Source: Bacteroidales bacterium (GTDB taxonomy: Bacteria; Bacteroidota; Bacteroidia; Bacteroidales; VadinHA17). Taken from it: DNA of 36,955 nt. Location: the NCBI GenBank assembly GCA_024762655.1, contig JANTHB010000033.1, forward strand, positions 1 to 36,955, in the 5' to 3' direction. Numbering within the stretch: position 1 is the first letter of the stretch; every line of letters starts with the position of its first letter. The notes beneath the pieces were generated by a model. It had not been told where the DNA came from and ran no database searches. It saw only the letters and a list, made by a program, of their open reading frames with translations. The position numbers and the translations under genes were made by a program. Below, piece after piece: positions 7,346 through 13,296 of the stretch.

Positions 7346-8371
7346 TTAGAACTCGGGGCAGGGAATAGCGTGGATTTTTCTTCTTTTATACTGTGTTGTT
7401 CTGAATTCGTACATAAAGGAGATCTCGTGAGAACCTCCTGTTGACATAACCAGACGGGAAATCGTAAAATCGTAACTATAACCCACATGAATCTGTTTGG
7501 TTTTATATCCCACAAGGATAACCATTGCATCCCGGTCGAAATATCCTTTCACTTCCTTGAACAAAGGGAATCCCCGATACCAGAATCCAAACATCAGAGG
7601 GCTTTTATACCAGTATAAACCCATATCCAGTTGTTTGAAGGGCCCCTGTGATTTAAACAGGAAAGCCAGGGAGAGGCTTTCTTCTATGGGTTTTAATAAC
7701 CTGCCCTTACGGATTATCTGTGCTCCGCCATAGACGGACACCTTGATGGGTAGCTGGCTGGCATCCCCATACAGTGATTGTTTGGGTTTCAGCAGATGAT
7801 CCACCGTGGTCCCAAACCAATACTTATCCGTATAGGCCAAAACGGACGTTTCCGCATCAATATCCCCGACATTGTCAAAGGGAGGCTGCTCGGTAGGGGG
7901 GGTATTTCCTCCCGGCGACAACTGATCATTAAAAATAAGCCGGTAAAAATCGAGAGACAACTGGGTATATTTCACCTGGATGCCGGGCCTGACGTATATC
8001 TCATCCGTAACCTGAATGTTATAGGAATAGAGCAACCCCAGATTCAGATTACTTAAATGGCCGGAGCCAGCGACATCGTACAATGCAAGGAAACCCACAC
8101 CCGAATTGAAATTTTGAAAATATTTATCAAAAGAAAAGCTATAGGTTGTAAAAACCCCTGGAATAGCGGGCCACTGGTTCCGGTAATTCATTACAATCCG
8201 GTTCTCTTCGGTAGCTCCCGTAAAAGCAGACCCGAGATAGAGAGGATTGGCATAAAACTGGGAAAACTGGGGATCCTGGGCATAGAGGGGCATGGCAAAA
8301 ACCATCCCAAAAATAAGTATGACCGAGAATCTTTTCACCAATATGTTCGTTATCAGTTTTTTAATAAACAA
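7346..8371 (-). CDS. PorP/SprF family type IX secretion membrane protein
   Basis: Signal peptide then AQDPQFSQFYANPLYLGSAFTGATEENRIVMNYRNQWPAIPGVFTTYSFSFDKYF, the typical PorP/SprF N-terminus. Confidence 0.92.
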   Translation of the reverse strand: MFIKKLITNILVKRFSVILIFGMVFAMPLYAQDPQFSQFYANPLYLGSAFTGATEENRIVMNYRNQWPAIPGVFTTYSFSFDKYFQNFNSGVGFLALYDVAGSGHLSNLNLGLLYSYNIQVTDEIYVRPGIQVKYTQLSLDFYRLIFNDQLSPGGNTPPTEQPPFDNVGDIDAETSVLAYTDKYWFGTTVDHLLKPKQSLYGDASQLPIKVSVYGGAQIIRKGRLLKPIEESLSLAFLFKSQGPFKQLDMGLYWYKSPLMFGFWYRGFPLFKEVKGYFDRDAMVILVGYKTKQIHVGYSYDFTISRLVMSTGGSHEISFMYEFRTTQYKRRKIHAIPCPEF

Positions 8372-8690
8372 AATCCTCCCCTGAATCTCAAAAAAACAAA
8401 GCTAAATGTAAAAATTATATTGTTTAAATTACGATTTAGTTAATCTATTAGTTTCAATCAGATCCTTTTATTTTACATCAAATGTAAAAAAATAAGTTAA
8501 ATAACTGATTAGATTTATTGATAAATGAGGTCATTTTATACGCAAATGCATAAAGGAAATCAACCGTTTGTTTTCAGGAAGGTTTTTTTATCGGTCCGTT
8601 TACGTGGTCCTGAACGCAGAGGAGTCTAACTATTACCGTCAATTTTTACTACGTAGGTTTTCTTACTGTCCGGCCTGTCCGGCGTTTCTA

Positions 8691-10076
8691 TTAATTTTTC
8701 TTTTTGATCAATGTTACATTTCCAAATCGTACGAAAGGTTTTCCATTGGAGAAAGTCCCTTTTGCTTTCCAGATATACACATCGGGTTTAGCCATTTTAT
8801 CAAGGATGTAGCCATCCCATCCTCTTTGTAACTCATTGCTTGTAAAAATCAGTTCTCCCCTGCGGTTGTAGATCTGCAGGTGATATTCCAAAACGCCTTT
8901 CCAGACAGGATGGAAGACTTCATTGGCACCGGGAGTATCCGTAAAATAACCGTCGCAGGGCCCATTGGGATTGGGGATGAATGCATTGGGAAAACGGATA
9001 TAGTACATACTGTTTTCAAAAGCATTCTTTACCACCATCGTATCCATGCATCCTTGCGGTGACCACACTTTCAGGATTATGCTGAAAGGTCCTTCCGAAG
9101 CATAATGATGCACGGGCTCAGCTTCTTCCGAAAAATGACCATCTCCGAAATCCCAGAGATATCTGACAGCATTTTCCGAGTTATTATAAAAAGTGATTTC
9201 TGATTCAGGAACCGCTGCATGCCGTGGATAAATTTCAAACGCAGCTTTGGGAGCTTCAAAAACCGTTATGGTATCCGTCCTGGTAGCTGTTTGTCCCTGT
9301 CTGTTTTTGCCGGTCAGTGAAACAATATAGGTCCCGGATTTTTCAAAGGTATGGTTTGTGTTCTCATTTTGAAATACCAACGGTTTGTTGTCCAGGGTCC
9401 ATGTGTAACTCTCGCAATTTTCAGATTGATTGATAAACCGGACCTGCAGGGGAGGACATCCTTTGTCGGGTACCGTCCTGAATCGAACATGAGGCAGGGC
9501 GTCTTCGGAGGAAGTTTCAGGGGATAATTCCGTTGTTTTTGTATCAGACCCGGTTGTCCCGGGAATTTCCTGTCCTGAAGGAATCTTATCCGGCGGATGA
9601 TGAACGCCTGCATTCTGTTTTTCTTCCGTTTTATCCACTGTCTGTCCCGCAACGGATGGTTTTTTTTCTACCTTTCTGTTCTTCTCCCCATGGGTTATCT
9701 TTTCTTTTTTGTTTGTATTTCTCACACTATCAGGCTTCTCTGTAATCGTTTCATCCGTAAAAATTTTTGCCGGTTGATGATCATTTCTTTTTTCATCAGC
9801 GGTAATTACTGAACTTGTTTTTGCCTGTTCCAAAGAAATTTCCGGAGAAGGTATTTTGTGGTCAGGTGAATGAGTTTTGATCCCCAAATAAATTCCGGTA
9901 GAAACCATTACAAGAGCGGTAAGATAGTAGATATTAAGATGTGAGGGAGAAAATTGCAGGAATTCCTTCCACCGCATTTTCCTGAGCACACGTCCCCAGA
10001 AAGATTTCGAAGGGGTCACGCGGTACCCTTCAAACTCCGTCTTAAACCACTTTTCTATGTTATTGTCCGTCCTCAT
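8691..10076 (-). CDS. Membrane-anchored PKD-domain protein with T9SS type-B / gliding-motility-associated C-terminal domain
   Basis: RBS-like AAGGAAG before ATG at 10076 (MRTDNNIEKWFKTEFEGYRVTPSKSFW). Internal TM helix (IYYLTALVMVSTGIYLGI), Lys/Glu/Thr-rich linker, PKD (YLWDFGDGHFSEEAEPVHHY), C-terminal FPNAFIPN...YHLQIYNRRGELIFTSNELQRGWDG...DVYIWKAKGTFSNGK...GNVTLIKK. Confidence 0.88.
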   Translation of the reverse strand: MRTDNNIEKWFKTEFEGYRVTPSKSFWGRVLRKMRWKEFLQFSPSHLNIYYLTALVMVSTGIYLGIKTHSPDHKIPSPEISLEQAKTSSVITADEKRNDHQPAKIFTDETITEKPDSVRNTNKKEKITHGEKNRKVEKKPSVAGQTVDKTEEKQNAGVHHPPDKIPSGQEIPGTTGSDTKTTELSPETSSEDALPHVRFRTVPDKGCPPLQVRFINQSENCESYTWTLDNKPLVFQNENTNHTFEKSGTYIVSLTGKNRQGQTATRTDTITVFEAPKAAFEIYPRHAAVPESEITFYNNSENAVRYLWDFGDGHFSEEAEPVHHYASEGPFSIILKVWSPQGCMDTMVVKNAFENSMYYIRFPNAFIPNPNGPCDGYFTDTPGANEVFHPVWKGVLEYHLQIYNRRGELIFTSNELQRGWDGYILDKMAKPDVYIWKAKGTFSNGKPFVRFGNVTLIKKKN

Positions 10077-10632
10077 TTTCTTCCTTATCCCGGATGGCAA
10101 TCCGGCTCATATTTTCCAGCTTATGTCTGATCATTTTTTTAGCTCTGGAATATTGCGATTTGCTTGTATTCACATCAATCTCCAGCATTTCGGCAATTTC
10201 CTTGTGTTTGTATCCTTCGATGGCATAAAGATTGAAAATCATTCTATATCCCGGTGGGAGACTCTGAATGACCTCCAGAAGCTCTTCACGGGTGAAATCG
10301 CTTTTGTCCGGCACCTCTGCATGGGGCGCATCATACATTTTCTCTATCTCGTCGTAATATCTGTGTTTCAAATTTTTGTGATAATATGTAATGGCCGTGT
10401 TTATCATAATTCTTCTCATCCAGTTAAAAAAGGAACCTGCTCCCGAGAACTCCTGCAAATGAAAGAACACCTTGACAAAACCTTCCTGCAGGATGTCTTC
10501 CGCCTCAGCGATATTGGCGGCATAACGGTTACACACACCCAGAAATATATCAGCATAGCGCTCATATAAAATCTTTTGTGCCTGCCTGTCCCTTTTTATA
10601 CAACCCTTTATGATATCTTCATCAGACTGCAT
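10060..10632 (-). CDS. RNA polymerase sigma factor, ECF subfamily
   Basis: Sigma-70 region 2 (ILYERYADIFLGVCNRYAANIAEAEDILQEGFVKVF) and region 4 (LPPGYRMIFNLYAIEGYKHKEIAEMLEIDVNTSKSQYSRAKKMIRHKL). Start may be 10632 (MQSDED) or 10659. Confidence 0.93.
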   Translation of the reverse strand: MQSDEDIIKGCIKRDRQAQKILYERYADIFLGVCNRYAANIAEAEDILQEGFVKVFFHLQEFSGAGSFFNWMRRIMINTAITYYHKNLKHRYYDEIEKMYDAPHAEVPDKSDFTREELLEVIQSLPPGYRMIFNLYAIEGYKHKEIAEMLEIDVNTSKSQYSRAKKMIRHKLENMSRIAIRDKEENEDGQ

Positions 10633-10825
10633 TCGCTCTACGTAATTTACGACCAGCAATGCAACGAAATGGTTGCATTCAGAAATATTATTTATTAATT
10701 TTTTTTCAACACTGTTTCAGAATATGTTCCCGGATGACAAAGGTCATAAAAATACAAAATATGAATAACGTTATTTTGTAGGTGTTAAGATATAAAAAAC
10801 CTACTAAATACTAAAACGCCGAATC

Positions 10826-11747: not shown

Positions 11748-11815
11748 CCCGGATCAACGCATCCGTTCCGTTGTTTCTCCGCTTCCCAATGCGTGATCCG
11801 GGTCTGTTGTTTTTT
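11748..11815 (+). terminator. Candidate terminator downstream of proline dehydrogenase
   Basis: CCCGGATCAACGCAT pairs with ATGCGTGATCCGGG (one bulged A, 26-nt loop), followed by TCTGTTGTTTTTT. Confidence 0.55.
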
Positions 11816-11938
11816 CCGGATCCGGCAGGTTCCAATACAGGGTCCTGGTTTTTAGGCAAAGTTTCCTGCCTGATATTTGTTGATTTGGTAAAAATTACCT
11901 TATTTTATATGAAATTGTTTCACATAAATCAGGAAGAG

Positions 11939-12673
11939 ATGGATAAAAGAACATTTTTCAAGTCAGCCGCTCTGGCAGGAGCAGGATTATTTGCCACCCG
12001 TATCGGAACCACCGCCACACCCGACCTCCCTTACTTACGTTTGTTTTCTCCCGGTCCGTTGACCAATGATCAGGGAGAATATGTTTTACCACCTTTGGAT
12101 TATCCCTATAATGCCCTGGAGCCTCACATTGATGAACAAACGTTGAAGCTGCATCATGACAAGCATCATGCAGGATACGTAAGAGGGGTAAACAAAGCCA
12201 TGAAGGCTATACAGGGTGCCCGGGAAAAAAATGATTTTTCCCTGATCAAGCACTGGGAAAGGGAGCTGGCCTTTCACGGTGCCGGGCATGTCATGCATTC
12301 CATTTACTGGAAAAACATGACCCCTAAAAAGACTTCGCCTTCAGGAACTCTAAAAAAATATATCAAGCGTGATTTCGGTTCTCAGGAGGCCTTTATCAAC
12401 TATTTTACCGCTGCTACCAAAAGCGTGGAGGGATCCGGTTGGGGCATCCTCGCCTATCAGACGGGAACGGATAAGCTGGTGGTCTTGCAGGCAGAAAAGC
12501 ACCAGAATCAATCGCAATGGATATCTATTCCCATTCTTGTTTGTGATGTATGGGAACATGCATACTATTTAAAATATCAAAATAAAAGAGCCGAGTATAT
12601 CCGTAACTTTTTCGATGTAGTCAACTGGGATGATGTTGGCAGCAGGCTGGATCACCTTTTGGATATGGCCTAA
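11939..12673 (+). CDS. Fe/Mn-family superoxide dismutase with Tat-like export signal
   Basis: ORF 11771..12673; likely ATG 11939 (MDKRTFFKSAALAGAGLFATRIG). SOD motifs LHHDKHHAGYV, GHVMHSIYW, GSGWGILAYQ, DVWEHAYYLKYQN. Confidence 0.88.
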   Translation: MDKRTFFKSAALAGAGLFATRIGTTATPDLPYLRLFSPGPLTNDQGEYVLPPLDYPYNALEPHIDEQTLKLHHDKHHAGYVRGVNKAMKAIQGAREKNDFSLIKHWERELAFHGAGHVMHSIYWKNMTPKKTSPSGTLKKYIKRDFGSQEAFINYFTAATKSVEGSGWGILAYQTGTDKLVVLQAEKHQNQSQWISIPILVCDVWEHAYYLKYQNKRAEYIRNFFDVVNWDDVGSRLDHLLDMA

Positions 12674-12706
12674 AAAAAAGCCCGGAACTTTCCGGGCTTT
12701 TTTATG
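12672..12706. terminator. Bidirectional terminator between convergent SOD genes
   Basis: AAAAAAAAGCCCGGAACTTTCCGGGCTTTTTT, A- and T-tracts on both sides. Confidence 0.9.
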
Positions 12707-12720
12707 TCACATATTTTAAT

Positions 12721-13296
12721 TTAATATCTCTCTGAGATTACCTCCCAGTTCAACAAGTTCCAGAATGAAGAAACGTAGTCGGGGCGTCTATTCTGATAAT
12801 CCAGATAATAGGCATGTTCCCATACATCACAGGTCATAATGGGGGTTAATCCTTTACGAAGGGGATTCCCTGCATTGCTTTCCTGTATGATTTGCAATTT
12901 GCCTGTATCATCTTTCACCAGCCATGCCCAGCCCGAGCCAAACAGGGTGGCGGCTTTCTTGCCGAATTCGTTCTTAAAATTCTCAAGCGAGCCAAAGTCA
13001 CGTTTGATAGCGTCGGCCAGTGCACCGACCGGTTCTTTCGCTCCATCCGGTCCGAAAGCCAAAAAGTAAAAGGTGTGATTCCACGCCTGGGCTCCGTTGT
13101 TGTAAAGACCTCCGTCAGCTTCCCTGATAATGGTCTCCAGATCAGCATTTTCAAACTTTGTTCCCTTACTCAGGCTATTTGTATTGTTCACATAAGCCTG
13201 GTGGTGTTTTCCGTAGTGAAATTCCAGTGTCTTCCTGGAAATAACAGGTTCCAGGGCATCCATGGGATACGGTAATTCCGGTAATTCAAAAGCCAT
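12721..13296 (-). CDS. sodB: Superoxide dismutase, Fe-type
   Basis: 191 aa; FHYGKHHQAYVNNTN, NNGAQAWNHTFYF (Gln characteristic of Fe-type), GSGWAWLV, DVWEHAYYLDYQNRRPDYVSSFWNLLNW. Confidence 0.93.
   Translation of the reverse strand: MAFELPELPYPMDALEPVISRKTLEFHYGKHHQAYVNNTNSLSKGTKFENADLETIIREADGGLYNNGAQAWNHTFYFLAFGPDGAKEPVGALADAIKRDFGSLENFKNEFGKKAATLFGSGWAWLVKDDTGKLQIIQESNAGNPLRKGLTPIMTCDVWEHAYYLDYQNRRPDYVSSFWNLLNWEVISERY

Follow-up and report, generated by a model that had tools for sequence, protein, structure and literature searches.

An ECF sigma factor gene in a Bacteroidales genome overlaps a gene for an inner-membrane protein that ends in PKD domains and a T9SS type-B CTD, with a PorP/SprF gene downstream. 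We propose, at a probability of about 0.6, that this membrane protein is an anti-sigma factor that acts as a tethered mimic of adhesin cargo and reports the availability of T9SS and PorP. The case is built from sequence, namely the architecture, the gene linkage, module swapping, sigma-head fusion, a promoter motif with second sites, and CTD and PorP subfamilies common to sensor and adhesin.

In the proposed mechanism, the sensor would be a chimera of a sigma-binding head, a transmembrane helix, a flexible linker whose length would let it reach across the periplasm, and the PKD-CTD end of a giant type-B adhesin. The sigma factor would drive transcription of the cassette itself and, in many genomes, of a giant secreted protein, while the adjacent PorP/SprF would be the shuttle for the sensor's tail subfamily. 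We infer that the head binds sigma and that the tail binds PorP, the tethered tail sampling the PorP/SprA export site. With export capacity free, the tail would be engaged, the head would let go of sigma, probably through pulling or regulated proteolysis, and adhesin would be made; with adhesin on PorP, the tail would be free and sigma held. This sign of response is proposed because an autoregulated circuit needs negative feedback.

The window analysed is a stretch of 36,955 nt from a Bacteroidales bacterium (VadinHA17; assembly GCA_024762655.1, contig JANTHB010000033.1), in which the cassette lies within positions 7,346–10,632. Its features are as follows.

10651–10677, minus strand: putative sigma promoter TGCAACCATTTCGTTGCATTGCTGGTC, with a −35-like TGCAACC, a 17-bp spacer and a −10-like GTC; it ends 18 nt before the sigma start codon (ATG)
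10060–10632, minus strand: ECF sigma factor, 190 aa, with Sigma70_r2 and Sigma70_r4_2 matches
8691–10076, minus strand: inner-membrane anti-sigma-like sensor, 461 aa, with PKD domains and a T9SS type-B CTD (domain and topology analysis)
9942–10076, minus strand: cytoplasmic head of the sensor, residues 1–45, two helices, without a Pfam family; proposed anti-sigma domain
9876–9935, minus strand: single transmembrane helix, residues 48–67 (topology prediction)
9507–9872, minus strand: charged, fast-evolving linker, residues 69–190, predicted to be disordered (pLDDT below 50; dN/dS 0.4–0.6)
9012–9494, minus strand: two PKD domains, residues about 195–355 (PKD_4 3.7e-19, two stretches)
8694–9005, minus strand: type-B CTD, residues about 358–461, of the giant-adhesin subfamily (profile scores, identity and tree)
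8479–8486, minus strand: conserved TACATTTG, a sigmaA −7-like box (TAnnTTTG) in the alignment of relatives, probably a separate PorP promoter
7346–8371, minus strand: PorP/SprF-family outer-membrane shuttle protein (PorP_SprF 1.1e-59; TIGR03519 3.7e-62)

The gene order of the initial annotation, ECF sigma, then sensor, then PorP/SprF, was recovered with all three genes on the minus strand, as was the 17-bp overlap, the sensor ATG lying at 10076 inside the sigma gene. The sigma factor comprises regions 2 and 4 only (Sigma70_r2 6.8e-12, Sigma70_r4_2 1.4e-17), and its closest relatives reach 89% identity. A domain search of the cassette found neither a TonB-dependent receptor nor a FecR domain. 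The PorP/SprF reading frame opens with a TTG codon, but translation more likely begins at a GTG at 8338, which would give a product with a signal peptide. A gap of 319 bp separates this gene from the sensor, and because the gap holds the conserved sigmaA-like box, which follows the published TAnnTTTG consensus (PMC9723704), the PorP gene is linked to the cassette yet probably also served by its own promoter; we therefore dropped it as a strict operon member. Elsewhere in the window, at 11771–13296, two genes for Fe/Mn superoxide dismutases, the products being 300 aa and 191 aa long, are arranged convergently, end to end, and adjoin a proline dehydrogenase gene.

Searching with the sigma factor gave 80 loci, most of them from Bacteroidales and other Bacteroidota MAGs, and a CTD-type sensor adjoins the sigma gene in 37 of them. 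Separate sampling of Bacteroidales, independent of the sigma search, found the same adjacency in at least 17 genomes. The sigma factor is thus not rarely adjacent to this gene in relatives, an outcome that would have counted against the initial proposal, and because the adjacency is conserved it is not a matter of chance. The two genes overlap by 14–17 bp in close relatives and are separated by up to 29 bp in distant ones, with one outlier at 137 bp. Among the 33 CTD-type loci with at least 1200 bp of sequence beyond the sensor, 28 have a PorP gene downstream on the same strand, 130–340 bp on, and five lack an adjacent one. The putative circuit is thereby found conserved in many families of the Bacteroidales. 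One Bacteroidales MAG (JARKQN01) carries the sigma-sensor pair twice, at loci L050 and L052.

The long charged linker and PKD-like repeats of the initial annotation were borne out, the latter as two PKD domains; its type-B CTD is divergent and falls just below the curated cut-offs (CHU_C 26.5 against 27 bits; TIGR04131 21.6 against 35), scoring 28 bits, over the 27, in a genome-wide search. This CTD is 40–57% identical to those of giant cargo proteins and forms one clade with them (99/95), apart from other type-B CTDs sampled from the source genome. The PKD and CTD part is well conserved (dN/dS 0.12–0.15). Foldseek matches of the sensor were generic Ig-like and PKD folds, headed by fragments of the Aureispira grappling hook, and were not counted as evidence.

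The PorP genes are related in the same way. T9SS is present in the source genome (SprA, 2774 bits), which encodes eight PorP/SprF proteins; that of the cassette scores 230–340 bits against giant-adjacent PorPs and 30–104 bits against the seven others of its own genome. In the PorP tree, the sensor-linked and giant-linked proteins group together (95/94) to the exclusion of those seven. Work on F. johnsoniae and P. gingivalis has established that type-B CTDs pair with cognate PorP/SprF shuttles (PMC12618676, PMC9143113). Given this, and given CTD and PorP subfamilies common to both, sensor and adhesin probably share the cassette PorP as their shuttle. The sensor-linked PorP of genome G209 (L238, 5287–6318) is split into two open frames, owing either to faulty assembly or to a genuine disruption.

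These observations bear on a different reading of the tail, in which the protein is an anti-sigma factor whose PKD-CTD end remains periplasmic and responds only to envelope stress or to CTD cargo that has not been exported, with neither entry into T9SS nor contact with PorP. RseA and RseB, for comparison, sense unfolded porins. Full export of the sensor would indeed be impossible without cleavage at the transmembrane helix, and barrel-type relatives show the same module working with other envelope sensors. However, the linkage to a PorP of the cognate subfamily in 28 of 33 loci speaks against a purely periplasmic role, as does the low dN/dS of the PKD and CTD part, a degree of conservation expected of an export signal. 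We regard this reading as unlikely, though credible.

The motif TGCAAC[CT]-N17-GTC is present ahead of the sigma gene in 53 of 79 loci, including all 36 readable CTD-type loci, and its spacer is 17 in each of the 53 although 14–19 was allowed; by chance it occurs in 0.77% of random 195-nt stretches. From this we infer that the sigma factor recognises the motif before its own gene and is autoregulated. In 42 genomes, selected via cassette or related sigma loci, a scan with a stricter form gave 63 sites against two for the reversed pattern. Thirty-four of these sites precede sigma; when the source genome's site on contig C4 is added to the other 29, 18 of 30 are followed within 100 nt by a gene for a signal-peptide protein, a lipoprotein or an outer-membrane protein. 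Cassette genomes have one to four sites each.

The gene after the second site is often that of a giant secreted protein, many of these giants being cut by contig ends. The one complete type-B giant, of 5433 aa in genome G209, has a C-terminal type-B CTD that belongs to the sensor's own subfamily. Other targets are not type-B cargo, and include lipoproteins, type-A CTD proteins and an OmpP1/FadL-like protein. In the source genome, where a relaxed form of the promoter pattern yielded mostly chance matches (16, the reversed control giving 11) and was discarded, the second site lies on contig C4, 42 nt before the gene for a DUF2341-like protein with a signal peptide, whose reading frame continues past the contig end. 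Contig C10 of the same genome encodes a giant of >5258 aa that carries the matching CTD and has no adjacent PorP, and the two fragments may be one split gene. Three genomes (loci L211, L213 and L223) have the motif 43–54 nt upstream of a 460–473 aa lipoprotein with a conserved FPGFRFASSD...RP end. A promoter copy with one mismatch lies 19 nt upstream of an ACP phosphodiesterase-like reading frame in genome G000 (C40:12394–12423, locus L150).

The promoter data also weigh on a model of opposite sign, in which the protein is a static trans-envelope tether. Its tail, anchored at PorP, would hold sigma off until disturbance at the surface or competition from cargo set sigma free. The roughly 120 disordered residues of the linker could span the periplasm, and the fused or separate barrels of other family members suggest an outer-membrane anchor. 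With autoregulation and an adhesin target, however, release by cargo competition would give runaway positive feedback, and we consider a static tether improbable.

The anti-sigma role assigned to the head in the tethered-mimic model is drawn from its position, topology, module swapping and fusion rather than from family membership. The gene lies directly downstream of sigma and encodes an N-terminal cytoplasmic domain and a single transmembrane helix, the layout of membrane anti-sigma factors. The cytoplasmic head put at roughly 50 residues in the initial annotation proved to be 45 aa long, and the single helix that follows it, at residues 48–67, stood. No cleavable Sec signal peptide was found in the sensor: there is no Ala-X-Ala site, and the helix comes after a conserved head under purifying selection (dN/dS 0.15–0.30, the linker being less constrained at 0.4–0.6), so that by appearance it is not a cleaved signal, a second outcome that would have told against the initial proposal. 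The search of the head against Pfam families, PDB sequences and known class I anti-sigma domains gave no match.

The head and helix keep the pattern IE.LFR..FE.Y...PS...W.....KL...FL.F....FNIYY across the sigma family, while the C-terminus varies between a CTD, an outer-membrane barrel and a short tail. The source genome itself has three sigma paralogues, each followed by a different protein, two of which have heads of this pattern. In six genomes sigma, head and transmembrane helix form one reading frame, and an assembly frameshift was dropped as the explanation, the fusion being present in all six. At these fusion loci (L107, L239, L240, L241, L260 and L269) the next gene encodes a signal peptide and YDTVYTYDTV-like repeats, and most of the products end like outer-membrane barrels. 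Eight loci (L072, L079, L081, L084, L092, L093, L094 and L121) carry the head in two or three tandem copies before the helix. AlphaFold modelling of sigma and head used natural fusions; in the model of a fused relative the head was predicted with modest confidence (pLDDT about 53–77), the model gave no sigma-head interface, and a Foldseek search with it matched the sigma part only.

The exchange of C-termini, the sigma-head-helix fusions, the autoregulatory promoter and the regulon site before a giant adhesin lend weight to the anti-sigma-like sensor first proposed. They support a sigma/anti-sigma pair with exchangeable sensors, in which the head probably binds and restrains sigma. That the protein is instead a conventional type-B surface protein whose signal peptide is exceptionally long, sharing an operon with sigma and never binding it, would fit its full PKD-CTD of exported proteins and the neighbouring PorP, but is very hard to reconcile with a conserved 45-residue head under purifying selection that recurs in barrel-type proteins at other sigma loci and is fused to sigma in six genomes.

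Set against known systems, the pair shares with class I pairs (RseA, RsiW and the short-headed CnrY) an overlapping downstream anti-sigma gene, a cytoplasmic head, a single transmembrane helix, an extracytoplasmic sensor and an autoregulated promoter; unlike them, its head has no Pfam or PDB sequence match and its sensor is the tail of a secretion cargo. Class I anti-sigma domains lie near only 6% of Bacteroidetes ECFs (PMC7406223). SprB-SprF and PG1035-PorP likewise combine PKD domains and a type-B CTD with a PorP/SprF gene directly downstream (PMC12618676, PMC9143113), whereas here the Sec signal peptide is replaced by an N-terminal transmembrane anchor and the neighbour is a sigma factor. 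In FecA-FecR-FecI, too, an outer-membrane protein, an inner-membrane anti-sigma factor and an ECF sigma factor form one circuit, but the cassette has a PorP/SprF shuttle as its outer-membrane partner in place of a TonB-dependent receptor.

Links between T9SS and ECF sigma factors have precedent. In P. gingivalis the T9SS CTD protein PorA affects the ECF factor SigP through PorXY (PMC7712824), which likewise has a CTD protein influencing a T9SS-linked ECF sigma factor; PorA, however, is exported to the surface and acts by a two-component route with no direct anti-sigma, in Porphyromonas only. In F. psychrophilum, promoters of T9SS genes have been linked to an ECF/anti-sigma pair (PMC9723704). 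The cassette would work like membrane anti-sigma systems and would resemble TonB-linked surface signalling and the FlgM checkpoint in its logic, yet by the features examined it belongs to none of these families. Literature searches returned no description of a type-B-tailed anti-sigma factor or of such a cassette, which does not prove that none exists.

In the FlgM-FliA checkpoint of flagellar export, the anti-sigma factor reports the state of the machine that exports the products of the sigma regulon. FlgM is soluble and fully exported; the cassette sensor differs in being membrane-tethered and T9SS-linked, with its dependence on export proposed. Tentatively, at somewhat under even odds, we extend the tethered-mimic model to a T9SS export checkpoint in which the mimic competes with the giant adhesin for PorP/SprF, as part of a wider Bacteroidota head family with exchangeable outer-membrane sensors.

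The head family may fill part of the gap in ECF regulation in Bacteroidota, its sensors swapping between outer-membrane barrels and a T9SS tail. The cassette also makes the matching of giant T9SS adhesin production to export capacity directly testable. If the model is true, adhesin transcription may be coupled to free secretion capacity, and the cell may read its own secretion state.
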